DNA from: Mucilaginibacter rubeus
Lineage (GTDB): Bacteria; Bacteroidota; Bacteroidia; Sphingobacteriales; Sphingobacteriaceae
Assembly: GCF_014643835.1 (NCBI RefSeq)
Contig: NZ_BMKD01000003.1
Coordinates: 496,001 to 560,000 of the forward strand
Reading direction: 5' to 3'
DNA: 64,000 bases
Shown here: one piece after another, positions 24,359 to 39,379 of the stretch
How the letters are laid out: each line of letters starts with the position of its first letter
Numbering within the stretch: the first letter of the stretch is position 1
Made by a program: the position numbers and the translations under genes
Notes under the pieces: generated by a model
Told to the model about the DNA's origin: nothing
Database searches by the model: none
What the model saw: the letters and a program-made list of their open reading frames with translations, nothing else

Positions 24359-27300
24359 ATGGATATTTTATATCTTGGTACGTCGTTTAAACATCAACCA
24401 AAACCATTATCCAGCATGTTACCACAACTTGCCAAAAACCTTGCCTGTTTGCTTGTCTTAAGCTTAATTATTTCTGTTAACCCGATATGGGCACAAACTA
24501 AATATGACGTGCTCAATTTCCGGATCGATTCGTTGGCCGCAGTAGGCTTGCCTAAATCAGCATTGAAGGAGGTTGATAAGCTCGACAAGCTGGCCCACGA
24601 TGAAAGTAATGCGCCGCAGCAAATTCGTGCAGTAATTTACCGGATGACATTTCAGTCGTACATTGAGGAAAATGCCTTGTCTGCCATTATCTCCCGGTTA
24701 AAAGCGGATATTGATAAGGCGAAGTTCCCCGTAAAGCCGGTGCTGCAATCAATGCTGGCCGAAATGTACTGGAATTATTACAAGGACAATCGTTACAATT
24801 ACAGCCAGCGGAGCCGCCTTGAAACGCCCGGCAACGATTACACCAAGTGGGACCTGCAAACCATCATTTCAGAAACAGCAAAACAATACCGGCTATCGCT
24901 TGCAGATACAAAACAGTTACAGGCCACGCCAATCGGCACTCTTGATGGTGTTTTAAAGGGCGATAAAAGCATCCGTTATTTGCGGCCCACACTTTATGAC
25001 TTACTGGTACAGCGGGCTTTTGAATTCTTTTTGGCTGACGAACCGGAAATCATCAAACCCAAAATGGCGTTCTCTGTGAATGATCCTGCTTTTTTTGGAG
25101 ATGCCGGTTCATTTGTTAAGTTGAACGTCAATAGTGTCGACACCGCTTCGTCCTGGTATCAGGGAATTAAGTTGTTGCAGCAGGTTACAGCATTTCATCT
25201 GCACGAAAACAATACAGATGCCCTCGCTGATCTGGAACTGCAACGTCTTAAATTTCTGCATATAAAATCTACTTTAAGCAATGCCGACTCGTTGTATCTG
25301 GCGAGCTTAAAACGTACAACAGCCAATTATGCTGCTAAACCGATAAGTGCCGAAGCTTTAGTACAAATGGGGCTTTACTATCAAAATATTGATAGCCTGG
25401 TTACAGCGCATAGTTATTATGAAAAAGCTAAAGAGTTATTTCCGAACAGTATAAGTGGAAAAAACGCGAAGGCTTACATTCATGAGCTAGAGCAACAGGC
25501 CTTATCAGCCCAGGTTGAAGAGGTATATGCTCCCGGCAAACCATTATTAGCAAGCTTGCAGTATGCTAATATTAAACAGGCAAAGTTTGCAATTTATAGG
25601 GTTACCGATGCGCAAATAAATCAGCTGAAAAAAGGCAATAACCAGGATGAAGAATGGGAGTTAAACATCAGCAAAAAGGTGTATGATTTTGTAACCAAAT
25701 TAAAGCCCGCGGAAACCGGCGAACTTTTGCTGCCTGATATGCACGATTATAAAAGCCACCATGCCGAATTTAAAATAGCACCGTTGCAGCCGGGCAATTA
25801 TTTTATAGTAGTTGATGATGCTTTGCAAAATAAGCCTGCATTAACCGGTTTAGCGCGTTTTAGGGTAAGTGGTTTAGCCTACGTGACACGGCAACGGCCT
25901 AACGGAGTAAAAGAGATCAGGGTACTTGATCGTGATAGCGGAAAACCGCTTAAGGATGTAACGGTTGATGTATACAATACTTATAACGGTAAAGACAAAA
26001 TGTTAAGGAACCCTATCAGTAAAGGCAACTCCGATGCTGACGGAGTATTCACTTTTACATGTAGAGGCAATTACTATAATGTAGACCTTTCAACTGACAA
26101 TGATCGGCTAACCGGCAGGCAAAACTATGTTTATGGTGTTGTAGAAACATCGCAGCCGTCTGCCGAGCCTGTCGAAAAAACAATTTTATTTACCGACAGG
26201 CAGATCTATCGCCCGGGGCAAACAGTTTATTTTAAAGCGTTGCAGATAAGTACGTTGAATAATAAAAGCAGCATTGTGCCTAACGCGCAGATTATTGTTA
26301 GTTTGTTTGATGCCAACAGACAAAAGCAGGGCAGTCTGAACCTTAAAACCAATGAGTACGGTACCGTAACAGGTTCATTTATTATACCTCAGCAAACGCT
26401 GGGTGGAATGATGTCTGTAATTACTGATCATGGCTCGGTAACGATCCGCGTTGAGGAATACAAACGGCCTACATTCCAGGTAACATTTTCGCCGGCAAAG
26501 GAAACGTATAGGTTCAATGACTCCGTACGTATCAAAGGTAAAGTTACCGCGTTTTCTGGCTACGGGTTATCTGGCGCAGGAGTAGCTTATCACGTTAGGC
26601 GAACACCAGCATATCGCCCTTATTATTTAAAAATGGGAGGTAACGACTACATCGTAGGAGGCACGCCGGCTGAGATAGCATCTGATACCATTAAAACAAA
26701 TACCAATGGCGAATTTCAGTTTGCATTTAAAGCTTCACCCGGTAACGGAAAAGTTCCGGATATGTATAATTACAGTATCGCCGCCGATGTAACTGATGGA
26801 AGTGGTGAAACACAGTCGGCAAATACCGAAGTCAAAGTAAGCGATAATGTGCTCGATCTGGATGGGACAGTGCCTGAAGAACTTTCAGTCAAGGATAAAT
26901 TAACTATCCCGGTAAAGCTTAACAATATAAATGGCCAGCCGCAAAACGGTATGCTGAATGTGAAGGTGTATTCGTTAAGGCAACCAGAAAGCGTGTTCAA
27001 AAAACGGTTATGGGAAGCGCCTGATCAACACCTGATGGATGCCGGTGAGTTTAAAAAGCTGTTTCCGGGCTATGCCTATAAAAAAGAGGACAAGCAGGAA
27101 AACTGGCAAACAGATAAAACTATTATCGACGACCGCATAACTGTTGCAGATAGTACCTATAGCCAACTTGATCTGGCGGCAATGAAACAACAGCCAACCG
27201 GCGTTTATAAATTGGTTATAAATGCCAGGAGCGGTAAGGGCGATACTACATCGCAAACATATTTTATCAAATTTCACGCTGAGGCTGGCAGGGCACCAGA

Positions 27301-30300
27301 TATGGATAGCTGGGCAACTGTCATTAATGATAAAATAGATAAGGCCGGGCAAACTGCCGAATTTTGGTTGGGCACAAGCAGGGAAACCCATCTCCTGGTT
27401 GAAAAATATGAGGGGCCTAAAATGCTATCGGCAGAGTGGCTTACTGTTAGCGGCGGTCAGCAGCGGAGCTTAAAAATACCTGTGCCTGCAACCGCTAAAA
27501 ACAATTTCGCGGTGCAATTTTTAATGCTGAACGATAACCGTTTGTACCGCAGCTATACCCACATCAAAATAAAAGACATTACATCGGCATTAAAGGTCCG
27601 GTTGCTTACTTTCAGAAATAAGTTACAGCCCGGCGAAAAAGAACAATGGAAAGTACAGGTATCGGCGCCTGGTAAAGAAAAGGAGCAAGCCGAATTATTG
27701 GCCGGTATGTATGATGCCTCGCTCGATGACGTTGCAATTCCGCAAACCTGGGATAAGCAATTACCAACATATGACGGCAACAATATCTATTATTTCAGTT
27801 GGGAAAATTATGATCAATTTGTAGAGTTAATTAGCACTGCGCCCTTTGATTATTCCCGATACTATCAAACACCCATTGTTGCAAGTTTTAATTATGAAAC
27901 GTTGGATTGGGCGGACTACAATTACTTTGGCGGTTATAACTATGGTTACAACAACTATCTCGCATCCGTATCAAATTATAAAAATGGTTCTGCTAAAGAC
28001 AGGCAGATAGAGGCTTTGTTCATCAAAAACTCAGCCCTTGTAAAAAACGGCTCAATAGTAAGCGGCCGGGTGCTTAACCTGTTTAAAATGCCAATAGCAG
28101 ATGTTAAGATCGCAATCAAAGGCACAAATATTAGTACAACATCCAATTCATTAGGTTTTTATAAGATTAAAGTACCCAAAAATGCTACACTGGTGTTTAG
28201 CGGAAAGTACCTGGCTACGTTATATATGAACCCGCCGGTAAATGGGTATGTGCGGATGGGTTTGAAAAATGCCGCTCGTGTAAGATTTAACGGAAAGGAT
28301 TATCTGAAGAAAACGTCTGCGGATACGGATGGATACATGGCAGTTAGTGAGCCGGTTGGCAATAGTGATATGACAGGAGTTGTCGAAAGTGAACCTAACG
28401 CAATGTACGCGTTGGCGGGAAGAGCGCCCGGGCTACAGGTTGCTTACGATGTAGCATCGGTAAATCAATATGCTAACAATAAAGTAGTTTTGCGGGAAAT
28501 AGCCGTAAAGCCTGTTGGGAAATTTGATAAAGAATTACTATCTGTTGGTTATGGTACACTTAAACCCATCGCTACCCGCAAAAACTTTAACGAAACCGCT
28601 TTCTTTTACCCGCAGCTCCGTACAGATGAAAAAGGACAGGTATTGATTGAGTTCACCATGCCCGAGGCGCTTACCAAATGGAAGTTCAGGGCTTTTGCGC
28701 ATAACAAACAATTGCAGCTTGGATATACAGAAGCTGAAGTTGTTACACAAAAACAATTGAGCATAAACGCCAATATGCCCCGCTTTTTACGTGAAGGTGA
28801 TACGGTGACCGTTTCCGCGAGGTTGGCTAATTTAAATACAGAACCACTGAAAGGGAATGTTGAGTTGCGACTATTCAACGGCATTAATATGCTGCCTGTT
28901 TCATTATTGGTAAACAATAGCGAGGCGCAGCAAAAGTTTGAGATTGATGGCTCTGCAACAAAACCAGTTTCTTTCAAATTGGTAATTCCGTCTGGCCTTG
29001 ATGCGCTTACTTATCGCTTAACTGCCGATGCGGGTAAATACACCGACGGCGAAGAAAATACTATCCCGGTATTGCCAAACCGTATGTTGGTTACCGAAAG
29101 TTTGCCGATGATGGTGCGGGCCGGGCAAACTAAAACATTCAATTTTGATAAGCTAATTAACAATAGCAGCATCACGTTAAAAAGTAAAACTCTCACGCTG
29201 GAGTACAGTCAAAATCCAGCCTGGAATGCTGTGCAGGCCATTCCTTACATGATGGAGTTTCCGTATGAGTGTTCGGAACAATTGTTTAGCCGTTATTATG
29301 CCAATAGCTTGTCGACAGATTTGATCAGTAAAATGCCGCTGATTAAGCAGGTATTTGATCAATGGAAAAGTGGCGACAGTAAAGAATTGCTCTCCAATCT
29401 CGAAAAGAACCAGGAATTAAAAGCCACACTGCTCGAAGAAACACCATGGCTGCAGGATGCTCTTAGCGAGTCGGAGCAAAAGAAAAGGATAGCCCAGCTT
29501 TTTGATCTCAATAAAATGAGCTACGAAATGAAGGCTAACCTGGATAAACTGAAACAAAAGCAATTACCGAATGGCGCTTTCTCCTGGTTTGGGGGCAATT
29601 ATGCCGATGATTACATCACCCGCCATGTTTTGGAAGGAATAGGACAGCTTTATCACCTGAAGATAGCCACAGCCGATAATAAAATATTAAAAGAGATTGC
29701 CGGCAAAGCGCTTGGGTATATGGATGCCGGGCTGGTAAAACAGGATAAAGAAGAGAAGAAACAAAAGGACTATCAAAAAAGAGAGATTGGTTACGATGAA
29801 GCCCATGCGTGGTACGTGCGGAGTTACTACACTGATAAGCCAATGGAACCGGCGTTAAAATCTATCTTCAATAATTATCTGAAACGAGCCGAAGATCAAT
29901 GGGTAATGCAAAGCATTTATGAGCAGGGAATGATAGCCGTGACTATGTTGCGCAACGGCAAGCCATTGGTGGCAAAGGCCATCATTAAATCGCTGATGGA
30001 AACTACACAAACTTCGGATGAGATGGGAATGTACTGGGGTAAAAACATGGTTGGTTATTACTGGTACCAGTCGCCGATTGAAACGCAAAGTTTAATGATT
30101 GAGTTGTTCACTGAGGCTGGTAATAACGCAAAAGCGGTTGAGGAAATGAAAATATGGCTTATGCGCAATAAGCAAACCAATAACTGGAAAACCACCAAAG
30201 CGACTGCTGCTGCTGTATATGCCCTATTGCTGAAACAGGAAGACTGGCTGCAAGGTGGCGCATCTGAAATTAAGCTCGATAATAAGCCTGTCGCCGATTT

Positions 30301-30898
30301 AAAACCGGATGTAAAGGCTGATGCAGGTACAGGCTATATCAAAGCCAGTTGGGGTGACGAGCAAATAAAGCCGTCATTAGGCAAGGTGGAGATCAAAAAC
30401 AAGGGGAAATCCATCAGCTACGGTGCAATGTACTGGCAGTACCTGGAGCAAATGGATAAGATCACCCCATCGCAAACGGATATTCACCTTGAACGTAAAT
30501 ACTTTATTAAAAAACAAACAGATGCAGGGCCTATATTACAGACAGTTGATGCGGCTCATCAGCCTAAAACCGGCGATCTGCTCAAAGCGGTGATTTATTT
30601 AAAAGCCGGTCGTGATTATGAATATGTTCAGTTGAAAGATCTTCGCCCGGCGGGTGCAGAGCCCGTATCAGTTCTGTCCGAATATAAATATCAGGATGGC
30701 TTATCCTATTACCAGGTAAATAAAGATGTCGCTACCAATTTTTTTATTAGTAATTTAAATAAAGGCAATTATGTGTTTGAATACGAATTGCGGGTAGTAC
30801 AGCCTGGCAATTATTCAACGGGGATTACCAGTATCCAATGCATGTACGCGCCGGAGTTTAATGCACATAGTGAGGGGAGCAGGGTGGTGTTTAAGTAG
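24359..30898 (+). CDS. Alpha-2-macroglobulin family protein with inserted SusC-like segment
   Basis: This 2179-aa exported protein has its signal sequence after residue 20 (NLACLLVLSLIISVNPIWAQ), so the ATG at 24416 is an alternative start. MG domains follow, with the hallmark KTILFTDRQIYRPGQTVYF near 607. An insertion near 1231-1370 has a carboxypeptidase-regulatory-like fold (GRVLNLFKMPIADVKIAIKG) and a plug-like echo (YALAGRAPGLQVAYD). The A2M core (FYPQLRTDEKG) is near 1412. The thioester motif C-S-E-Q is at 1638-1641, so the Cys and Gln needed for covalent trapping are kept. Bacterial members trap attacking proteases in the periplasm or at the surface. The usual partner PBP1C is not adjacent. 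The SusC-like part suggests a surface or outer-membrane attachment. Confidence 0.9.
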   Translation: MDILYLGTSFKHQPKPLSSMLPQLAKNLACLLVLSLIISVNPIWAQTKYDVLNFRIDSLAAVGLPKSALKEVDKLDKLAHDESNAPQQIRAVIYRMTFQSYIEENALSAIISRLKADIDKAKFPVKPVLQSMLAEMYWNYYKDNRYNYSQRSRLETPGNDYTKWDLQTIISETAKQYRLSLADTKQLQATPIGTLDGVLKGDKSIRYLRPTLYDLLVQRAFEFFLADEPEIIKPKMAFSVNDPAFFGDAGSFVKLNVNSVDTASSWYQGIKLLQQVTAFHLHENNTDALADLELQRLKFLHIKSTLSNADSLYLASLKRTTANYAAKPISAEALVQMGLYYQNIDSLVTAHSYYEKAKELFPNSISGKNAKAYIHELEQQALSAQVEEVYAPGKPLLASLQYANIKQAKFAIYRVTDAQINQLKKGNNQDEEWELNISKKVYDFVTKLKPAETGELLLPDMHDYKSHHAEFKIAPLQPGNYFIVVDDALQNKPALTGLARFRVSGLAYVTRQRPNGVKEIRVLDRDSGKPLKDVTVDVYNTYNGKDKMLRNPISKGNSDADGVFTFTCRGNYYNVDLSTDNDRLTGRQNYVYGVVETSQPSAEPVEKTILFTDRQIYRPGQTVYFKALQISTLNNKSSIVPNAQIIVSLFDANRQKQGSLNLKTNEYGTVTGSFIIPQQTLGGMMSVITDHGSVTIRVEEYKRPTFQVTFSPAKETYRFNDSVRIKGKVTAFSGYGLSGAGVAYHVRRTPAYRPYYLKMGGNDYIVGGTPAEIASDTIKTNTNGEFQFAFKASPGNGKVPDMYNYSIAADVTDGSGETQSANTEVKVSDNVLDLDGTVPEELSVKDKLTIPVKLNNINGQPQNGMLNVKVYSLRQPESVFKKRLWEAPDQHLMDAGEFKKLFPGYAYKKEDKQENWQTDKTIIDDRITVADSTYSQLDLAAMKQQPTGVYKLVINARSGKGDTTSQTYFIKFHAEAGRAPDMDSWATVINDKIDKAGQTAEFWLGTSRETHLLVEKYEGPKMLSAEWLTVSGGQQRSLKIPVPATAKNNFAVQFLMLNDNRLYRSYTHIKIKDITSALKVRLLTFRNKLQPGEKEQWKVQVSAPGKEKEQAELLAGMYDASLDDVAIPQTWDKQLPTYDGNNIYYFSWENYDQFVELISTAPFDYSRYYQTPIVASFNYETLDWADYNYFGGYNYGYNNYLASVSNYKNGSAKDRQIEALFIKNSALVKNGSIVSGRVLNLFKMPIADVKIAIKGTNISTTSNSLGFYKIKVPKNATLVFSGKYLATLYMNPPVNGYVRMGLKNAARVRFNGKDYLKKTSADTDGYMAVSEPVGNSDMTGVVESEPNAMYALAGRAPGLQVAYDVASVNQYANNKVVLREIAVKPVGKFDKELLSVGYGTLKPIATRKNFNETAFFYPQLRTDEKGQVLIEFTMPEALTKWKFRAFAHNKQLQLGYTEAEVVTQKQLSINANMPRFLREGDTVTVSARLANLNTEPLKGNVELRLFNGINMLPVSLLVNNSEAQQKFEIDGSATKPVSFKLVIPSGLDALTYRLTADAGKYTDGEENTIPVLPNRMLVTESLPMMVRAGQTKTFNFDKLINNSSITLKSKTLTLEYSQNPAWNAVQAIPYMMEFPYECSEQLFSRYYANSLSTDLISKMPLIKQVFDQWKSGDSKELLSNLEKNQELKATLLEETPWLQDALSESEQKKRIAQLFDLNKMSYEMKANLDKLKQKQLPNGAFSWFGGNYADDYITRHVLEGIGQLYHLKIATADNKILKEIAGKALGYMDAGLVKQDKEEKKQKDYQKREIGYDEAHAWYVRSYYTDKPMEPALKSIFNNYLKRAEDQWVMQSIYEQGMIAVTMLRNGKPLVAKAIIKSLMETTQTSDEMGMYWGKNMVGYYWYQSPIETQSLMIELFTEAGNNAKAVEEMKIWLMRNKQTNNWKTTKATAAAVYALLLKQEDWLQGGASEIKLDNKPVADLKPDVKADAGTGYIKASWGDEQIKPSLGKVEIKNKGKSISYGAMYWQYLEQMDKITPSQTDIHLERKYFIKKQTDAGPILQTVDAAHQPKTGDLLKAVIYLKAGRDYEYVQLKDLRPAGAEPVSVLSEYKYQDGLSYYQVNKDVATNFFISNLNKGNYVFEYELRVVQPGNYSTGITSIQCMYAPEFNAHSEGSRVVFK

Positions 30899-31273
30899 AA
30901 TGATAAGCTTTAAAGTAAAAAGTGAAGTCTCCGACCTCGGATGATTATGCCTGTAATCTTCAGACTACGGTGGTTCAAATAGCGAGGCTGTATAAATCAA
31001 ATTTACCGACCCATGACGTTGTGTTACCTGTGAATTGAAATTGGCTGATAATATTTATACAAAAAGAGGGTTAACATATTTTTGTATAAATAAGTGTCAA
31101 TTATTTGATTATGAGTTATATATGTGAATGTTAACCCCGAATTCTGTTAACCCTGTTAAACCCCTTTTTGTCAGTAAAGGCAACTCACAATTATAGCTTA
31201 AGTACCCAGATAAGCCAACAAAAAAACCCGGAGCTTTTAACTCCGGGCCGTGGATGTGATAAAAACTTAGGTA
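30899..31273. other. 375-nt intergenic region with repeats and terminators
   Basis: No gene is seen. A 13-bp perfect inverted repeat, ATTTATACAAAAA (31053-31065) and its complement (31079-31091), may end alpha-2-macroglobulin transcription. GTTAACCC-like words occur at 31130, 31146 and 31155, with an inverted copy at 31068. The terminator of the minus-strand operon is listed separately. Confidence 0.55.
31219..31247 (-). terminator. Rho-independent terminator of the AhpD/TonB receptor operon
   Basis: CCCGGAG (31227-31233) and CTCCGGG (31241-31247) form a GC-rich stem with a 7-nt loop, followed on the minus strand by a run of T (A at 31220-31226 on plus). It lies 27 nt past the last minus-strand stop. 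Confidence 0.85.
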
Positions 31274-31828
31274 TTAAACTTTCTTAAAAATGCTTGATAT
31301 GTAGCCGACCTCTGCGCGTTCGGGTGCCCGGTCAATGTAGATTTGTCTATCTTGTGGTGCCCATGTACCTAAGCCGTCAACATAGCGGTTAAACATGCAA
31401 AAAGCCGCGGCAATTAGTACAGTGTCATGGATCTCCTTATCATCAGCTCCCTCCGAGCGGGCCGCTTCAATTTGCTCGGTAGTTACATGTTTACCGCCTT
31501 TTTGTACGCTGCCGGCAATGGCCAATAGGGCTTTCATTTTCGCTGAAAGATCAGTTGCCGAAAAGTTGGCTTTGATGGCGTCTATCTCATCAATATTGCA
31601 GCCAAGGTAATAGCCGGCTACTGCACCGTGTACATTTTGGCAAAAGAAACAATCGTTGAGGTAGGATACATAGGTTGCTATCAGTTCCCGTTCTCCGCGC
31701 GATAGGGAATTGTTGTCATCGCGAAGCAGTTGTTCGGCAAGGGCATTTAACGGGGCCTCTGTTTCCGGACTATAAAACATCAGGCCGCGGATGCCGGGCA
31801 GGTCGTTATTTAATTCTATATGTGCCAT
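31274..31828 (-). CDS. AhpD-like carboxymuconolactone decarboxylase family protein 1
   Basis: This 184-aa helical protein carries the AhpD active-site pattern E-x11-C-x2-C-x3-H in ERELIATYVSYLNDCFFC followed by QNVH. The C-terminal NRYVDGLGTWAP is typical of the peroxidase-related branch of this family. AhpD proteins reduce peroxides or peroxiredoxins using the CxxC pair. It is the last gene of a minus-strand operon and shares its fold and motif with two paralogues, 31846-32391 and 36550-37110. Its substrate is unknown. Confidence 0.88.
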   Translation of the reverse strand: MAHIELNNDLPGIRGLMFYSPETEAPLNALAEQLLRDDNNSLSRGERELIATYVSYLNDCFFCQNVHGAVAGYYLGCNIDEIDAIKANFSATDLSAKMKALLAIAGSVQKGGKHVTTEQIEAARSEGADDKEIHDTVLIAAAFCMFNRYVDGLGTWAPQDRQIYIDRAPERAEVGYISSIFKKV

Positions 31829-31845
31829 ATCTGTCTGGTTAAAAA

Positions 31846-32391
31846 TTAATGCTGCGGTTGTGGTAATACATAGCCTTTAGCCATACGTTTGCCCATTTCG
31901 GCATAAGCTTCCGGGTCGGTAGGGGTAAGGCTGGCAAGCCCGTCAACATAGCGGTTAAACATGCTGAACGCGGCTGCTATCAATACCGCGTCGTGAATTT
32001 CGCGATCAGTAGCGCCTTCTGCACGGGCTGCGTCAACGTCTTCCTGTTTTACTTCTTTACCCAGGATTTGTACTTTGCCCGCAATATTTAGCAGGGCTTT
32101 TAGTTTAGCGCTGATGGGCGCTTCGGTCATATCGCATAAAACTTCGTTAACAATGAGGGCGTCATCCTCATATAAACAACGGGCAGCGGCGGCATGACTG
32201 CTGTAACAAAATGTGCAGTTGTTACGATAGGATACGTAGGTAGCAATCAGCTCGCGGTCGGCCGGACTTAAGGTTGACTCTCCGCGTAATAATACTTCAG
32301 CCAGTTCATACAAATACTGACCGGTTTCGGGCCTGAACATTACCAGCGAACGGATGCCCGGAACGCCTTCGGGTACATTGATGTGTGCCAT
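31846..32391 (-). CDS. AhpD-like carboxymuconolactone decarboxylase family protein 2
   Basis: This 181-aa paralogue of its downstream neighbour has E-x11-C-x2-C-x3-H in DRELIATYVSYRNNCTFC followed by YSSH. The YVDGLASLTP end is also shared. It lies 17 nt before paralogue 1, and the MFS gene lies 74 nt upstream. Retention of both Cys and the His in all copies argues that each is catalytic. Confidence 0.88.
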   Translation of the reverse strand: MAHINVPEGVPGIRSLVMFRPETGQYLYELAEVLLRGESTLSPADRELIATYVSYRNNCTFCYSSHAAAARCLYEDDALIVNEVLCDMTEAPISAKLKALLNIAGKVQILGKEVKQEDVDAARAEGATDREIHDAVLIAAAFSMFNRYVDGLASLTPTDPEAYAEMGKRMAKGYVLPQPQH

Positions 32392-32397
32392 ATTTTT

Positions 32398-32429
32398 AAT
32401 TAGTGAATTAGTGAGTTATTGAATTAGTG
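32398..32429. repeat. Four tandem octamers AATTAGTG between MFS and AhpD-like genes
   Basis: Units AATTAGTG, AATTAGTG, AGTTATTG and AATTAGTG follow one another without gaps in the 74-nt space between two operon genes. The neighbouring stretch 32440-32485, reaching into the MFS stop region, is also low-complexity (AGCTTT/GGCTTT words). Confidence 0.6.
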
Positions 32430-32465
32430 ATTTTTTTAATTTTCTAAGCTTTCGGCTTTAAGCCT

Positions 32466-33740
32466 TCAGCTTTTTGCTTTTTCCTCGCCTTCGGCTTTCT
32501 CCTGTACAAATAATACTACCAGCAAGCCTATTATAAATACCAGTGAAAAGATGAATAGCGAGTTACCGTAGCCTCCCAGGGTTGATACCAGCACGCCTAC
32601 AAATAAAACCGCGGTAGCTGTAAAAATACGCCCGATGTTGAAGCAAAAGCCTGTTGCAGTTGCTTTGATGCCGGTTGAAAATAATTGGGGGATATAGGCT
32701 GATAATACGCCCTGGCTCGCCCCAAAGAATAAAGCCAGTATTATTATCTCGATATAAACTGCCGTACTGAATGTAGTATTAGTTTTAAACAGGACGAATG
32801 ACATACCTGCGCAAACCGCAAAACAGATCACCATGGAGCGCCTTATAGATAGTAAATTAACAAGCCATCCTGAAAAGAAACCACCGGTTAACCCACCCAT
32901 GCCCATACACATCATGCTCAGGCCGCGTTCTTTTGCGGCATCATGGTCGGTAATCAGGCTTTGCACCCAGGTAGGTAGCCACGAAAATATGGCCCATAAA
33001 CCTATCAGCATTGTACCGAAGGTTAAGGAGCCAACAATAAGCTCGCGGCGATGGCTTTTAGAGAGGAGCTTGTTCAAGGGATTTTCGCGGTTGGCGATAT
33101 CGTTACGGTAGTTGAGCCAGTTTTCAGATTCATTCAAAACCAGAGCGCCTATCAATGCCAATGCAAGAGGGATTACCCCGACTAAAAAGCCCGACCGCCA
33201 TGACGATACAATAAAGTTGATTAGCCCTGCAGAGAAAATACCTACCGGGAAAGCTATGGAAAGAATGCCTATGATCACTGCTTTGCTTTTGGCCGGCCAG
33301 ACTTCGCTCACCAGCGTTATGGATGTTACCAAAACGCCGCCTACGCCAAAACCGCTGAAAAAGCGGCAACACAGCACGCCCCACCAGGTTGGCATTAACC
33401 CGGTTAAAATGGTAAATACGCCATAGCTGCCAATGGCGAGCAGCAAGGCTTTTTTCCGACCCATTTTATCGCTGATTACCCCCCAGGTAAAACCACCAAA
33501 GGCCCAGCCGAATATAAAAATGGCATTGATATACCCGCTGATGGCGTTGATTTCATTGGCCGGAACGGCACCCTGTAGATCCTTTACCACAACAGGCAAG
33601 TAAACCGACATCAGCGTGGAAACCGAACCGCCCAGGGCAGTACTAAAAAAACAGATCACAAACAGCACCATCCTATAGGCGGCACTGAGGTTTGTTTGAG
33701 GTTTTGCAAGCTGCTGTTCTTCAATTGCTAAAGTGCTCAT
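32466..33740 (-). CDS. MFS transporter (aromatic acid or sugar type)
   Basis: This 424-aa protein has 12 predicted membrane helices and the MFS loop 2-3 motif GVISDKMGRKKALL near residue 85-98. A second copy-like signature occurs in the middle half. The PF07690/PF00083-type layout and the long central loop at 205-225 (ENWLNYRNDIANREN) recall the aromatic acid:H+ symporter group, but the substrate is unknown. The C-terminal tail (EKAEGEEKAKS) is low-complexity and coincides with simple repeats in the DNA. It is 6 nt from the TonB receptor gene, so the receptor and the transporter probably move the same compound across the two membranes. Confidence 0.88.
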   Translation of the reverse strand: MSTLAIEEQQLAKPQTNLSAAYRMVLFVICFFSTALGGSVSTLMSVYLPVVVKDLQGAVPANEINAISGYINAIFIFGWAFGGFTWGVISDKMGRKKALLLAIGSYGVFTILTGLMPTWWGVLCCRFFSGFGVGGVLVTSITLVSEVWPAKSKAVIIGILSIAFPVGIFSAGLINFIVSSWRSGFLVGVIPLALALIGALVLNESENWLNYRNDIANRENPLNKLLSKSHRRELIVGSLTFGTMLIGLWAIFSWLPTWVQSLITDHDAAKERGLSMMCMGMGGLTGGFFSGWLVNLLSIRRSMVICFAVCAGMSFVLFKTNTTFSTAVYIEIIILALFFGASQGVLSAYIPQLFSTGIKATATGFCFNIGRIFTATAVLFVGVLVSTLGGYGNSLFIFSLVFIIGLLVVLFVQEKAEGEEKAKS

Positions 33741-33746
33741 GTTATT

Positions 33747-36515
33747 CTATTTTAAAAGGTCATCAAATACTATTGAAACATAATAAATGGCGCCAATTGC
33801 CGGCGAACCATATGATTGGTAAATACGGTTGTTGAAGATATTGCTGCCACCAACTTTAATTGTTGATTTAAATTTTGGCAGTTTTTTGTTGAACTGCAGA
33901 TCAACAACTGAATAAGCATCAACGCGACCGGGGCGGGTACCGTTAAATGTGCCATACCAGTCGTAAGCAGTTTGCCAGTGCCATGCCGCGTTAAAACCGA
34001 AATCATTGATTACGTTGCTGTTGCCAAATGTTGCATTGGTGCCCCATTTTGGTGTATTGAAAGCCGCAATATTGTTAGGATTAGCGTTGCGAAGGTTAAA
34101 TACTGATAAAGTTGCGTTACCACCCAAAGCGTAACCGCCGTTAAGCAGGTATGTTAAACCGGCGCTTGCTCCCTGGGCCGATACTTTATCCGGTGCGTTG
34201 GTATACAACTGGAAGGCGTGAACCTTACCGTTAGGAATATCAGTTGCGGAGGCTGTGGTAATCTGGCCATCAGAACCAAGAATTGGATTGCTGGGTTGAA
34301 TAACCACAGTATTCAGAATAAAGTTGGTGTAGCTGCTGTAATAGTAGTTTACGTCAATCAGTAATTTATCCATCATCAAGCCTTTATAGCCCACTTCAAA
34401 TGCTTTTTGCTGCTCTGGTTTAATGTAGGCTACGCTTGCTTTTTGGAGCAGCCCCTTGTTTTGTTCGATAGCCTGTGGGAATGACGTACCGCTTTGTACC
34501 GCCTTGCCAAACGCAGCGCCAAAAGCGCTTACCGATGACGAGGTGAACGAGTTTTCATAAACGTTTAAGCCCTTGCTGTTATTAGGCGCACCGCCCAAAA
34601 TAGTGATAGGGCCTACGTTAAGGTGGATAAACTGATCAACAGGGGTTGGGTTCCTGAAACCGGTTTGATATGATGCCCTGAAGTTTGAGGTTTTATCAAC
34701 CGTATAAACTGCCGAAAAGCGAGGGGTGAAGCTGCCTTTAAAGTTTTCGTTTTTATCGTAACGGATAGAGGCTGTCAGTTTCAAATTATCATCAAACAGC
34801 TTTTTAGCAGCCTGTAAAAACGAACCGTACTCTTTAATGGTTACACGATTTACCTTGTCATCAAACAAACTGCCATTGGTAAACATCCTGTAATCGCGGA
34901 AACTGCCGCCTGCCAAAAGCTCAAACACTTTTATGGCGCTGGTAAAATCATACTGGCCTTCGGCATGGTAAAATTTACTGTTACTGAAAACACCCGCTCC
35001 GCTCAAGCCATAATTGTGGATAGATGCATTTTTGGCATTGTTAAATTCAGCAGTACCCGGTAAAAAACGGCCCTGATCAGCAAAAGTTCTTGCGGCAGAA
35101 TTGCTATTTGGCGTAACACCACTTACCGAACCGTTAAACGCAGCCGCATAACGGGTAAACCAGGTATCATCGGCTTTATCAGGTGTTACAGTGTTTCCGT
35201 TCAGGTCTTTTACCCAGTCGCGGTTGATGAATTGGGCCAGGGAGCGGGTATTATATGAGTCGTGCGAATTTTCTTCAACCGAGTAGCCGCGGACGAAGAA
35301 GTTGCTGCCTTTTAACTCAATCCTGTGTGTTTGCAAAACAAAGTTATTCAGATCGAAACGGCTGCTGCCGGTATAGCTTGCAGTACCGCGGCCGTAGTTG
35401 TATTGGTAGATTGCCTCCAGGTTATTGCTGAAACGGTATTGTAATGCGCCGTTAAGTTTAAGGCTGTAAACGTTGTAGTTCATCAGGTCTTTTTCCTCAT
35501 AACCTGTTCTGGAAACCAAGCCAATGCCGGGTAAGGTTTTTGTAACCTCATCTCCATAAATATTTAGCGCATCGCGCCCGGGGTTGTTAGGCCCACGTTG
35601 TGCTGCCGGTGTTGAAGCGCTTACGTCGGTATAGTTATCGGCATACCAGTCGCGCCCGGTCAGGTATGAGGCATTGATTTTAAACGCGAATTTATCGTTG
35701 AAAGCTTTGGCATAGCGGGCTGCAAAATCATACAAGCCCTGTGGTTTAACAACCGATTCGCCGAAGTGATTAAGGCCTGTTTTTACCTGCACGGTTAAGC
35801 CCTGGTATTTGAAAGGATCTTTGGTTTTAAGTGAAAGTAAGCCGTTAAAAGCCACCGGGCCATACAAAGCTGAAGCCGCACCTGGAATAACTTCCACGCT
35901 TTCGATATCAATATCCGAAGCGCCAAAAAGGTTACCAACTGAAAAGTTTAAGCCTGGTGTTTGATTGTCCACGCCGTCAACCAACTGCAAAAAGCGACTG
36001 TTACCCGTGCTGTTAAAGCCGCGGGTGTTGATCTGTTTATAGGTTAAACTGCTGGTAACCGCTTCAAGGCCTTTTAAGCTTTGCAAGCCATCATAAAAAG
36101 TAAACGAAGGGTTGTCCTTAATGGCTTTAAGGCTCATTTTTTCGATACTTACCGGCGATTGCAAAATGCTTTGGTTGATACGCGTTGCAGATGATACCAC
36201 CTCGTTGAGCACAATTGCCTTTTGGGTTAGCTTTATGCTGATATCATTATTGGCAGAGGTTACCTGGCTTTCCTGCACTTCAAAGCCTACTGCCGATATA
36301 ATGATAGTAAAGGGCAGCTTTAATTTATTGGCGTTTAACGTATAGCTACCTTTTGAGTCGGTAGTGGTGCCGGTGAGTTTCCCTTTTACGGAAATACTTG
36401 CGCCGGATACAGGTTTGCCTGTAGCTGCATCGGTAATGTTGCCCGTTATTTTAATTTTCTGTGCAAACAGGTTTATTGAGCTGAGCAGTAATATGATGAA
36501 TAAAAGTTTTTTCAT
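33747..36515 (-). CDS. TonB-dependent receptor with carboxypeptidase-like N-terminal domain
   Basis: This 922-aa protein has a signal peptide (1-18, ending NLFAQ) and a CarboxypepD_reg-like domain at 20-105 (ITDAATGKPVSGASISVKG). A plug domain at about 110-225 includes VDGVDNQTPGLN and VIPGAASALYGP. A 22-strand barrel runs to the end (GAIYYVSIVFDDLLK). No SusD-type gene lies beside it, so it is a non-SusC receptor, probably for a small molecule or metal chelate rather than a glycan. It is the second gene of a five-gene minus operon with AhpD-like and MFS genes. Confidence 0.9.
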   Translation of the reverse strand: MKKLLFIILLLSSINLFAQKIKITGNITDAATGKPVSGASISVKGKLTGTTTDSKGSYTLNANKLKLPFTIIISAVGFEVQESQVTSANNDISIKLTQKAIVLNEVVSSATRINQSILQSPVSIEKMSLKAIKDNPSFTFYDGLQSLKGLEAVTSSLTYKQINTRGFNSTGNSRFLQLVDGVDNQTPGLNFSVGNLFGASDIDIESVEVIPGAASALYGPVAFNGLLSLKTKDPFKYQGLTVQVKTGLNHFGESVVKPQGLYDFAARYAKAFNDKFAFKINASYLTGRDWYADNYTDVSASTPAAQRGPNNPGRDALNIYGDEVTKTLPGIGLVSRTGYEEKDLMNYNVYSLKLNGALQYRFSNNLEAIYQYNYGRGTASYTGSSRFDLNNFVLQTHRIELKGSNFFVRGYSVEENSHDSYNTRSLAQFINRDWVKDLNGNTVTPDKADDTWFTRYAAAFNGSVSGVTPNSNSAARTFADQGRFLPGTAEFNNAKNASIHNYGLSGAGVFSNSKFYHAEGQYDFTSAIKVFELLAGGSFRDYRMFTNGSLFDDKVNRVTIKEYGSFLQAAKKLFDDNLKLTASIRYDKNENFKGSFTPRFSAVYTVDKTSNFRASYQTGFRNPTPVDQFIHLNVGPITILGGAPNNSKGLNVYENSFTSSSVSAFGAAFGKAVQSGTSFPQAIEQNKGLLQKASVAYIKPEQQKAFEVGYKGLMMDKLLIDVNYYYSSYTNFILNTVVIQPSNPILGSDGQITTASATDIPNGKVHAFQLYTNAPDKVSAQGASAGLTYLLNGGYALGGNATLSVFNLRNANPNNIAAFNTPKWGTNATFGNSNVINDFGFNAAWHWQTAYDWYGTFNGTRPGRVDAYSVVDLQFNKKLPKFKSTIKVGGSNIFNNRIYQSYGSPAIGAIYYVSIVFDDLLK

Positions 36516-36549
36516 TGTGATTGGGTTTTACTTTAAATAGGGATTAGGA

Positions 36550-37110
36550 TTATTTTTTCAAATGATCATAGCCTTGCGGCAGGCGGGTATAACCATGGTT
36601 AACAAGGCGTTCGGCCAGTACGTTGTAGTAACCGGCATCGGCTGGGAGGGCAGTGGCCAATCCGTCAACATAGCGGTTATAATAGCAAAATAGGGCAGCT
36701 ATAAGCACGGTATCATGGATCTCAATGTCGGTAGCTCCGGCTGCTTTGGCACGGTCGATGGCTTCGGTAGTTACATTCCGGCCGTTTTGTGCGGTTAGTT
36801 TGGCAATTGTAAGCAGGGCTTTCATTTTCTCGGTAACCGGAGCGGTTTCGATGTTTTCCTTTACCTTTTGTGCTGTTTCGGCTTCGCCGGCAAGCAGATC
36901 GGCTGCGGCGGTGTGAGCGGTAGTGCAAAAGGTGCATTGGTTGTTGTGTGATACTATGGTGGCTATCAGCTCGCGATCAGCTTCGGATAGGGTGGATGGG
37001 CCGCGCAATAAAAATTGCGTAAGGTTACGGATAGGTTGTGCCGGTTCTTTGGCATACTCCAACAGGCCGGTAATGCCCGGCAAATGGCTTTCAAGGGTAA
37101 TATAAGGCAT
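36550..37110 (-). CDS. AhpD-like carboxymuconolactone decarboxylase family protein 3
   Basis: I start this at the ATG at 37110 (186 aa). The frame is open to 37245 but the extension has no homology feel, and paralogues begin at the same point (MPYITLESHLPGITGLL aligns with MAHIELNNDLPGIRGL). The active-site motif is E-x11-C-x2-C-x3-H in DRELIATIVSHNNQCTFC followed by TTAH. It is the first gene of the minus-strand operon, ahead of the TonB receptor (34 nt). Two palindromes lie 50-90 nt upstream. With three copies in one operon the family appears central to this system. Confidence 0.88.
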   Translation of the reverse strand: MPYITLESHLPGITGLLEYAKEPAQPIRNLTQFLLRGPSTLSEADRELIATIVSHNNQCTFCTTAHTAAADLLAGEAETAQKVKENIETAPVTEKMKALLTIAKLTAQNGRNVTTEAIDRAKAAGATDIEIHDTVLIAALFCYYNRYVDGLATALPADAGYYNVLAERLVNHGYTRLPQGYDHLKK

Positions 37111-37160
37111 AAATAATTTTTGAATGTTTGTAGGTTGGGGAAGGGGATGTACCTGTCTGG

Positions 37161-37200
37161 AGATTACTAATCTTATCGATATATAGCTATTTTCATAGCT
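37161..37200. promoter_or_regulatory. Two palindromes upstream of the AhpD/TonB receptor operon
   Basis: AGATTACTAATCT (37161-37173) is a perfect 13-bp palindrome. AGCTAT-TTTC-ATAGCT (37185-37200) is a second inverted repeat 11 nt further on. They lie 51-90 nt before the start of the first operon gene, where operators are expected. No cognate regulator gene is adjacent. Confidence 0.5.
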
Positions 37201-37297
37201 CTTGAGCCACGAATAAACTATCGACAGAAATAAATAATAACACAACAGTATAGTGGCACAGCCGCTACCCTAAAAATGAATTAAAACAGGGAGAAGA

Positions 37298-37861
37298 TTA
37301 ACAAACAGCCTTTGGCGGTTGCTCCGGAATATCCTGGTGAGCAGGAATTAACTGTTGAACCGGGTGAACAACAATTTGTTGAGTATATTTTACAGGGCAG
37401 CCAAACTCAAAATGTACAAAAGTGAAATTGAGGTTATCCTGCATAATTATCTTACCAAAGGGTACATGCTCCTTTTGCGGTACAGGGTTCTCTTTTACAT
37501 CCCTGGCGTTAATGATGTTCTTATCGGCCAGCCGGGTGGTTTCGTAGTTTGGGATGCACATCAAATAAATTGCGCGACTGGTTACGCGCATTTTTTGATA
37601 ATTGTAGCTGTTGTTGCCAAACCGGATCTGCCCATGAATATTTTCGTAGTTTTTCCAGTCGGTTATGCCAGGCATGTTTACCGGGATTACTACCTCGGTA
37701 AGGTCTTTCACATTGTAAAAGCCTTTGGCAGTTTGTTCGGCAAAGTATTTATTGCTTTTGTAAACCATGAACTGATGCAATGCCAGTTGCCCGCCTATAT
37801 TAAGCAGGTGAAAACCGAGCAGCATTAGAGCAATAAACTTCTTCAATTGGTTTACGAACAA
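37298..37861 (-). CDS. Hypothetical protein with N-terminal membrane anchor
   Basis: This 187-aa protein is not recognised. A hydrophobic segment at 8-29 (FIALMLLGFHLLNIGGQLAL) acts as signal or anchor, followed by a polar domain of about 150 residues with no repeats. The motifs VIPVNMPGITDW and VHFEFGCPVKYTQQIV recall a family of small Bacteroidota envelope proteins of unknown role. It is separated from the AhpD operon by 187 nt and is divergent from ohr. A single Cys is in FGCPVKY and another at the C-terminus (KAVC). Confidence 0.65.
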   Translation of the reverse strand: MFVNQLKKFIALMLLGFHLLNIGGQLALHQFMVYKSNKYFAEQTAKGFYNVKDLTEVVIPVNMPGITDWKNYENIHGQIRFGNNSYNYQKMRVTSRAIYLMCIPNYETTRLADKNIINARDVKENPVPQKEHVPFGKIIMQDNLNFTFVHFEFGCPVKYTQQIVVHPVQQLIPAHQDIPEQPPKAVC

Positions 37862-38078
37862 TGAGTTGCTTAAAATTGCTGTTTATAAACGTAGTATCCA
37901 AATTTATTTAGAATAATTACGCGTAATGTGTAGCTGGTTTTCTTATTCTTTACCGGTTGTGATTAAAAGTTTCAATAGCTCTCGTACTGGTTGAACTTTC
38001 GGCTTAAAGAATGTCTTGTTCACGACATGGCTTGTCCGGTTCACATAGTTAGTGATAGGGCACCGGGCGATATCAGGG

Positions 38079-38086
38079 TATCTTTG
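38079..38086 (+). promoter_or_regulatory. Promoter -7 box of ohr
   Basis: TATCTTTG matches TAnnTTTG 39 nt before the ohr ATG. No clear TTG at -33 was seen. Confidence 0.45.
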
Positions 38087-38124
38087 AGCATACAAAAAAC
38101 AAAAATTAATAAATAAATAACACA

Positions 38125-38601
38125 ATGGAAACTATTCAAGAATCAGGTATCAGTAAGATCAAGGTTATCAACGCTATCTCAGCTAATAAAATCGACAAAG
38201 TATTATATACCGGTAAAGTTCGTACAGTTGGCGGTCGTGACGGTGGTTCATCTGTTAGTACCGATGGCCAGTTGGATATCAAACATTCAACTCCCGGAAC
38301 CCCTAAACCAGGCACAAACCCCGAGCAATTATTTGCAGCAGGCTGGTCAGCATGTTTTGAAGGCGCCATCGGTATTGCTGCCGCTAAAAAAAGGATTGCA
38401 CTCCCTGCCGAATTGGCTATTGATGCAGAAGTGGATTTGGGTATCACTATCGGCGCTTATTTCCTTCAAGCCCGTTTAAATGTAAGTTTGCCAGGTTTGG
38501 ATGTTGAAGTAGCCAAAGCATTGATTGAAGAAGCACACCAAACATGTCCTTATTCAAAATTGACTTACGGTAATATCAATGTTGAGATCAATTTAGTATA
38601 A
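38125..38601 (+). CDS. ohr: Organic hydroperoxide resistance protein, OsmC/Ohr family
   Basis: This 158-aa protein matches Ohr closely, with an N-terminal extension of about 15 residues. The motifs GGRDGGSSVSTDG (Arg38), TNPEQLFAAGWSACFEGA (Glu67, peroxidatic Cys77) and HQTCPYSK (resolving Cys141) are all present. The pair of cysteines and the Arg/Glu relay support thiol peroxidase activity towards fatty acid and other organic hydroperoxides. It is divergent from the 187-aa hypothetical gene and convergent with the MBL-fold gene, with a strong bidirectional terminator between. Ohr is usually controlled by OhrR, which is not adjacent here. Confidence 0.94.
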   Translation: METIQESGISKIKVINAISANKIDKVLYTGKVRTVGGRDGGSSVSTDGQLDIKHSTPGTPKPGTNPEQLFAAGWSACFEGAIGIAAAKKRIALPAELAIDAEVDLGITIGAYFLQARLNVSLPGLDVEVAKALIEEAHQTCPYSKLTYGNINVEINLV

Positions 38602-38640
38602 ACCCCTTCCGCCCCCTGAAGGGGGTACTTTAAAAGTCAT

Positions 38641-38678
38641 AAAAAGGCCTGCTCCTGTTAAAGAGAGCAGGCCTTTTT
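38641..38678. terminator. Bidirectional terminator between ohr and MBL-fold gene
   Basis: GGCCTGCTC (38646-38654) and GAGCAGGCC (38665-38673) form a 9-bp GC-rich stem, flanked by AAAAA (38641-38645) and TTTTT (38674-38678), so it works in both directions. Confidence 0.88.
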
Positions 38679-38698
38679 ATGTATGGAAAATCACAGAT

Positions 38699-39379
38699 TT
38701 AAATCTCTATACTTTCGCCAATGGCTGGTAAAAACAATTTTATCCCTGCCTGTTCAAATTGTTTAAAAGCTTTGTCCTTATCTATTTTAATAAAGCCAAA
38801 AGTATCATAATGACCCCCCAAAACCTTATTGGCCTTAACAAGCTTTGCCGCTTCAATGGCATCTTCAACGCCCATCGTTAACATGTCCCCGATCGGGAAA
38901 ACCGCGAAATCCAGATCAATCCATCTTGCCACCAGTTCCATATCTAAGGTGAGACCGGTATCGCCACTGTAATAGAGATTACCATCATCGGTCTTTAAAG
39001 CATAACCGCAGGCCACGCCTGCATAGCTGCCATCCGGAAAGCTGGCCGAGTGTTGGGCAATGAATGATTTGGCAATGCCAAAATCAAAAGTCACCTTGCC
39101 GCCAGGGTTTAAAGGATGCACATTTTTAACGCCTTTTTTGCTGAAGTAATCATACACCTCATAAATACCCACAACCATAGCGCCTGTACGGTTGGCTATA
39201 GTTTCTACATCCAAAATATGATCGTAATGCCCGTGCGATACAAAAATGTAATCAGCTTTTATTTCATCAATGTTGATTTCTTTTGCCAATTCGTTACCTG
39301 TAATAAAGGGATCAAACAAAATGTGTTTACCTCCGGCTACTACCGAGAAGCACGAGTGACCGTAATAGTTGAGTTTCAT
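38699..39379 (-). CDS. MBL-fold metal-dependent hydrolase, UPF0173 family
   Basis: This 226-aa cytoplasmic protein has MLNYYGHSCF-type strands at the N-terminus and the metal motif SHGHYDH near 48-54 (HxHxDH). Further metal ligands are in QHSASF, SGDTGL and GGHYDTF. The length is normal for UPF0173. Family members are predicted hydrolases related to UlaG lactonase; the natural substrate is unknown. It is convergent with ohr and follows the 140-aa secreted protein gene by 27 nt on the same strand. Confidence 0.9.
   Translation of the reverse strand: MKLNYYGHSCFSVVAGGKHILFDPFITGNELAKEINIDEIKADYIFVSHGHYDHILDVETIANRTGAMVVGIYEVYDYFSKKGVKNVHPLNPGGKVTFDFGIAKSFIAQHSASFPDGSYAGVACGYALKTDDGNLYYSGDTGLTLDMELVARWIDLDFAVFPIGDMLTMGVEDAIEAAKLVKANKVLGGHYDTFGFIKIDKDKAFKQFEQAGIKLFLPAIGESIEI

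Follow-up and report, generated by a model that had tools for sequence, protein, structure and literature searches.

A conserved operon of three AhpD-like paralogues, a TonB receptor and an MFS transporter in Bacteroidota

Gene content and boundaries of the operon

The DNA analysed here (the window, to which all coordinates refer unless stated otherwise) is a stretch of 64,000 nucleotides from Mucilaginibacter rubeus (contig NZ_BMKD01000003.1, positions 496,001 to 560,000). Its minus strand carries, in the order of transcription, CMD_A, a TonB receptor, an MFS transporter, CMD_B, CMD_C and a terminator, with gaps of 34, 6, 74 and 17 nt from CMD_A to CMD_C. Such close spacing on a common strand fits one operon, which is presumably read as a single transcript. 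The features are, from upstream to downstream:

37899..37906, minus strand: promoter-like box TAAATTTG, 45 nt before HYP
37298..37861, minus strand: HYP, 187 aa, with an N-terminal membrane helix, a small beta part and a C-terminal PP motif
37161..37200, minus strand: two short palindromes in the gap that separates HYP from CMD_A; nothing supports a role for them
36550..37110, minus strand (ATG at 37110): CMD_A, AhpD-like, 186 aa; PF02627, TIGR01926, motif ELIATIVSHNNQCTFCTTAH
33747..36515, minus strand: TonB-dependent outer-membrane receptor, 922 aa; Pfam CarbopepD_reg_2, Plug and TonB barrel
32466..33740, minus strand: MFS inner-membrane transporter, 424 aa; Pfam MFS_1 PF07690, PF00083
31846..32391, minus strand: CMD_B, AhpD-like, 181 aa; PF02627, TIGR01926, motif, tree
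31274..31828, minus strand: CMD_C, AhpD-like, 184 aa; PF02627, TIGR01926, motif, tree
31225..31249, minus strand: intrinsic terminator 3' of CMD_C, with an 11-pair stem, 6 G-C pairs and a T tail

The initial annotation described three AhpD-like paralogues with an E-x11-C-x2-C-x3-H site that flank a receptor and a transporter 6 nt apart, and Pfam, NCBIfam, alignment and coordinates bear out both statements. All three CMDs possess the site and score 56, 47.7 and 50.2 bits with Pfam CMD (PF02627, cut-off 23), and they pass the cut-off of 81.8 bits of TIGR01926 ('peroxidase-related enzyme') with 87.2, 91.1 and 91.5 bits. Identity to CMD_C amounts to 49% for CMD_B and 45% for CMD_A, and CMD matches in the PDB include 6k40, 2oyo, 3c1l, 2pfx and 2prr (E 9.5e-20 to 2e-18). 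In the nearest genome of the collection, where 16 candidates were scored, exactly the three operon genes match the CMD profile at E <=1e-25, a grouping that exceeds chance.

The same annotation had the operon end at a terminator on one side and at the palindromes on the other, of which the former stands and the latter probably does not. The terminator after CMD_C (31249-31225) is the best of the scan, in a region where terminator-like sites as such are not in excess (11 vs 9.8 in shuffles). The palindromes, AGATTACTAATCT at 37161-37173 and AGCTAT-TTTC-ATAGCT at 37185-37200, lie within the gap between HYP and CMD_A and are poorly conserved: the first is kept in locus L031, and they are altered or missing in L032-L034. 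No Rfam match was obtained at 37161-37200. HYP itself is situated 187 nt upstream of CMD_A on the same strand, and of the 14 loci found with the MFS profile (see below), nine have a homologue directly before CMD_A. The TAAATTTG box, which resembles the Bacteroidota -7 promoter consensus TAnnTTTG, is common to L031-L034 and persists in L034 although the DNA farther upstream differs; a search for it in L039, L040 and L042-L044, and upstream of CMD_A in four Pedobacter loci, gave nothing. Because HYP and the box are conserved and the palindromes poorly so, the operon probably starts upstream of HYP, one gene before the start proposed earlier.

A riboswitch or structured leader before CMD_A was considered and rejected, as an Rfam scan of 30500-38700 returned only sub-gathering matches and none in the leader; the upstream sequences of 13 loci, read by eye, likewise displayed no evident common structure.

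Other elements of the surrounding DNA are recorded here in their own right. A perfect 14-nt inverted repeat, TATTTATACAAAAA, with a 13-nt spacer is found at 31052-31092, between the operon terminator and the gene at 24359-30898, whose 2179-aa product has, by eye, an alpha-2-macroglobulin-type look with an inserted carboxypeptidase-regulatory-like part. At 38596-38683, after an Ohr gene, several weak sub-gathering Rfam matches coincide, perhaps at a two-way terminator.

Conservation of gene order and the three CMD lineages

A profile scan of genome contigs with the MFS yielded 14 loci, which span Sphingobacteriaceae, Chitinophagaceae and Chryseolinea and include Mucilaginibacter, Pedobacter, Paraflavitalea and Paracnuella. 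Whether the gene order recurs in other genomes was a check set beforehand, and it does: the order CMD_A-receptor-MFS-CMD_B-CMD_C is present in 11 of the 14 loci, and the full set also occurs on a plasmid of Spirosoma oryzicola. Variants are L040, with CMD_A, receptor and MFS followed by three other CMDs, and L036, with a single CMD after the MFS; the contig of L035 starts inside the receptor. Among 60 near genomes, the receptor was detected at >=71% identity in eight, all from the same genus (37 genomes of the genus examined); in each it is flanked by HYP plus CMD_A and, at the opposite end, by the MFS, and at least three CMDs are present. The MFS was found at E 1e-90 in ten of the 60, CMDs adjoining it every time; a ninth MFS-bearing genome of the genus (G016), with a completeness of 71%, has this gene at the start of its contig.

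Across the phylum, 22 of 395 genomes possess an MFS match at E <=1e-60, and the regions of all but G201 and G143 were examined. At >=47% identity CMDs adjoin the MFS in seven of seven genomes, and among the 13 regions at <=42% CMDs stand beside an MFS in G158 and G335, while G176 displays CMD-receptor-MFS. The CMD profile in turn matches 26 of the 395 genomes; in the 21 contexts viewed (all but G228, G268, G283, G377 and G392), an MFS-CMD run is present in 12, and nine harbour CMDs without such a run, so that the CMD subfamily seems to work also without these transporters. Four genomes from two families outside the class, according to the kinship label of the genome collection, carry an MFS, three to four CMDs and then a TonB receptor (L147-L150). 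Aside from this arrangement, a CMD frame of L150 (8585-10825 of that locus, the third) was observed to run into a signal peptide and a TonB receptor, be it through fusion, a lost stop or a sequence error.

The receptor varies widely. Its relatives are 59-98% identical in 13 loci, and the receptors outside the class reach just 119-134 bits with the receptor profile (L147-L149; that of L150 is cut off), compared with at least 1391 bits within it. In L071 the place of the receptor is taken by a receptor-like protein of 984 aa together with a SusD-like protein (612 bits from the Pfam-confirmed SusD of L209), and L072 has a CMD-MFS-CMD run with two CMDs and no receptor. Receptor relatives of about 40% identity gave no clue to the substrate: among 14 such regions, neighbours are shared by sets of 2-3 loci at most. 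A tree of the MFS proteins places the transporters from outside the class apart from those within it, on long branches, and its test is compatible with one common origin for the MFS that accompany CMDs. Because the receptors outside the class are so different, the CMD set looks like a stable core with an exchanged receptor, the exchange being judged from low profile scores only. The conserved operon is real, and the combination of the trio with the transporters is apparently new, in agreement with the initial annotation, which knew of no system of this make-up: none is described in the titles or abstract starts among the literature matches listed.

The descent of the CMDs was examined in a tree of 104 rows, from which rows of <=150 bits or <150 residues and L069 (a copy of L031) were dropped, with the region L107 not sampled; the root is the midpoint, and a clade denotes one side of a branch. 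One branch (100/99) unites all 20 proteins of position A, the second CMD of the four outside-class operons and two single proteins, and A can firmly be taken as an old separate lineage; the CMD_A of the window is placed in it via the near-identical copy in L031. A second group (90/93) comprises 19 B proteins, the first CMD of the four outside-class operons and one single, and B is likely, with moderate support, to be a separate old lineage as well. The C group (99/91) contains 19 C proteins, the second CMD of L040 and one single; this lineage appears less clean than A and B, with the third CMDs of outside-class operons falling near it and the second and third CMDs of L149 forming long branches. 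Proteins of one lineage are 68-70% identical and those of different lineages 47-49%, the L040 rows being assigned by the tree. Outside the class, the first CMD is nearest to B (57%) and the second to A (51%), and the third is equally close to B (46.6%) and C (46.7%).

The active site, said to be kept in all three paralogues, is complete in the window and somewhat less constant among the relatives. The glutamate, second cysteine and histidine are retained in 59 of 59 A, B and C rows; the first cysteine is retained in 17/20 A, 17/19 B and 20/20 C proteins and is replaced by threonine in L074 (A), L075 (A and B) and L103 (A and B), four of the five losses having a cysteine one position earlier. 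That three relatives have lost this residue from A or B is odd for a two-cysteine peroxidase. The same replacement is found in more distant proteins: a tblastn search with CMD_A gave 50 plasmid records, 45 of them from Streptomyces with 41-48% identity, of which 13 regions were viewed, and in all 13 Streptomyces rows scored the first cysteine is threonine with the rest of the site kept (a weaker CMD in L115, 104 bits, keeps CxxC and was left out of this count). These rows form one clade (99/95). Several of the regions (12 are annotated) hold natural-product genes, such as acyl carrier proteins, an enediyne gene or a condensation domain, and others do not; an MFS gene lies 14 and 24 nt downstream of the CMD in L104 and L110, and no TonB receptor is listed in the regions viewed.

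Genes linked to the operon

HYP has no match in Pfam, its distant homologues are just 18-21% identical, and its predicted structure is of low confidence (pLDDT 58.7; shallow alignment), as is that of the receptor (pLDDT 52.6; shallow alignment), and both models are of insufficient quality for fold searches. HYP and its relatives (L185-L202) make up a family of small membrane proteins in Bacteroidota; a C-terminal PP(P) motif is present in many of them, and their genes are often situated directly upstream of receptors, of CRTAC1, or of pairs of a MetA (Phenol_MetA_deg-like) and a PAP2-family, haloperoxidase-like gene. Divergent from HYP lies a gene for an Ohr-family peroxiredoxin (38125-38601, plus strand; TIGR03561 139.6 bits, cut-off 88.85), which is next to HYP also in L031-L033 and farther off in L034; this adjacency was not seen in L035-L044.

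Proximity tests with windows set post hoc and rounded genome sizes point to further partners: among the 26 CMD genomes, DUF3179 occurs <=1 kb from a CMD in three (0.014 expected), CRTAC1/UnbV within 5 kb in at least four (0.56 expected, P 0.002) and haloperoxidase-like genes, which are common (58 matches), within 8 kb in two (0.24 expected, P 0.02). DUF3179 adjoins a CMD in L042, and the two form a two-gene unit in eight genomes of the genus, including G156 (L154, L210-L216), in which the genes overlap or are <=13 nt apart. CRTAC proteins take part in HYP-CMD-CMD-HYP-CRTAC-CRTAC and HYP-CMD-CRTAC sets (L204, L205, L207). In G335 (L147, 1-10363), one CRTAC1/UnbV gene, 4.2 kb away, and one haloperoxidase-like gene were found after a run of MFS, four CMDs and receptor; Pfam detects no family in the examined part of the latter, and the other haloperoxidase-like gene near the operon is that of G247. 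DUF3179 and CRTAC1/UnbV are linked partners in the sense of leads, and the haloperoxidase link is a weak lead only. We know of no function for DUF3179 or CRTAC1/UnbV. Both the DUF3179 and the AhpD-like families have selenocysteine forms according to the accessible part of one report (PMC9312934), which would fit thiol-redox roles. A study of how plant-associated Bacteroidetes use phosphorus (PMC8115612) contains no haloperoxidase, CMD or MFS terms.

Possible function and known relatives

Our preferred explanation, for and against which we consider the chances evenly balanced, is an import line of receptor and MFS for a small organic compound that feeds a three-subunit thiol-redox enzyme made of the CMDs. 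A scarce compound would cross the outer membrane by way of the TonB receptor and then, probably, the inner membrane by way of the MFS; once in the cytoplasm, it would be the target of cysteine-dependent redox reactions of CMD_A, CMD_B and CMD_C, which would most likely belong to a single enzyme. AhpD-like proteins assemble from one kind of chain into trimers or hexamers, and a mixed A/B/C oligomer would therefore be the simplest reason to keep three. Since the trio is kept together with putative import genes, the imported compound should be the CMD substrate; if the three share it, an oxidised organic molecule (a hydroperoxide, quinone-like or halogenated compound) is the best guess. As there is no catabolic gene besides the CMDs, this processing might instead be detoxification. 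The uptake system of the initial annotation is partly supported, by gene order, spacing, the importer-like MFS and the thiol-redox site. Its peroxide theme is not, given that the first cysteine is lost in some relatives and in Streptomyces and that Pseudomonas aeruginosa needs its AhpD-like protein RclX to withstand HOCl and HOSCN rather than peroxide, according to the available portion of the description (PMC7950407).

This activity of RclX also favours the main rival, a possible, if doubtful, role in defence against oxidants or antibiotics, in which the CMDs would reduce peroxide, HOCl/HOBr or redox-active natural products and the MFS would export a toxin that enters via the receptor. The divergent Ohr-type gene in the window and L031-L033, the Streptomyces relatives in natural-product regions (two beside an MFS gene) and the haloperoxidase-like genes of G247 and G335 are all in keeping with such a role; however, the Ohr gene is not adjacent in L035-L044, the proximity of haloperoxidases is weak and post hoc, a TonB receptor of its own suits nutrient uptake, and the MFS scores higher with importer than with efflux families. 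Its best NCBIfam match is indeed the aromatic acid/H+ family TIGR00895, followed by MhpT (112 bits) and sialate (102 bits) importers, all far below their cut-offs. Uptake and catabolism of aromatic acids, with the CMDs as true carboxymuconolactone decarboxylases, would agree with this match, and a TonB receptor that serves an aromatic compound derived from lignin is known from the accessible part of a previous study (PMC6874591), yet we judge it improbable: the MFS reaches only 156.7 of the required 418.55 bits, the CMDs are peroxidase-related proteins of TIGR01926 with the AhpD CxxC site, and no ring-cleavage or ketoadipate gene is found among the operon genes. Uptake of a siderophore or other metal chelate, with CMDs that would free the metal or guard against peroxide formed through it, is more improbable still. 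TonB receptors often serve chelates, among receptors of known structure the colicin I receptor has the most similar sequence (E 2.4e-11), and the Spirosoma receptor bears an electronically inferred siderophore GO tag; against this, the best-matched residues (107-248) are mainly plug region, the operon genes include no siderophore-interacting or ferric-reductase gene, and in L071 the partner is a SusC/SusD-like pair instead.

An extension of the preferred import reading, which we regard as unlikely and put forward as speculation, makes A, B and C an obligate heteromer with divided tasks and its own receptor-MFS line, within a wider Bacteroidota kit for oxidised or halogenated organics, where CMDs, HYP, DUF3179, CRTAC1/UnbV propellers and haloperoxidase-like enzymes would be recombined to capture and reduce such compounds. 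If true, it would represent a novel type of redox pathway coupled to the envelope. The operon would also tie DUF3179 and CRTAC1/UnbV proteins to the same chemistry, and a CMD trio shared by two classes, by old descent or transfer, with very different receptors provides a handle on CMD function.

Most AhpD-like proteins carry an annotation as antioxidant enzymes, with no substrate assigned. The receptor for the lignin-derived aromatic reportedly works with an MFS importer, and to our knowledge its system has no AhpD-like genes. It is alike as an outer-membrane receptor for a small organic compound, but belongs, in the part of its description at hand (PMC6874591), to an aromatic catabolic pathway, which the window operon does not possess. 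A glycan importer of the SusC/SusD type does not fit, as the receptor obtains 101.9 bits with TIGR04056 (cut-off 368.25) and has CMD and MFS as neighbours. The ahpC partner gene of an AhpC/AhpD system is not seen in the operon either, none of its genes being AhpC-like and the nearby peroxiredoxin belonging to the Ohr family, and for PcaC no such model occurs among the NCBIfam matches at E <=0.001 and no pathway gene among the operon genes.

As far as the accessible parts of the reports go, a Zobellia CMD gene is induced on fresh brown algae together with antioxidant genes (PMC9296495), a Bacteroides CMD gene appears in an iron table (PMC10434189) and an AhpD-like protein is tied to chlorine redox biology (PMC9751292). 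RclX, likened here by description, is an AhpD-like protein with CXXC and a role in defence against thiol-reactive oxidants, for which a homohexamer model is described in the available text (PMC7950407); unlike the window genes, it forms a single-gene operon under RclR, with no transporter. With the AhpD and TIGR01926 enzymes in general, the window proteins share the CMD family and the E-CxxC-H site, and they differ from them in being three old paralogues, as judged by their tree, in an operon with a receptor and an MFS. The parts are thus of known kinds, and it is their combination and the long-kept trio that are apparently new.
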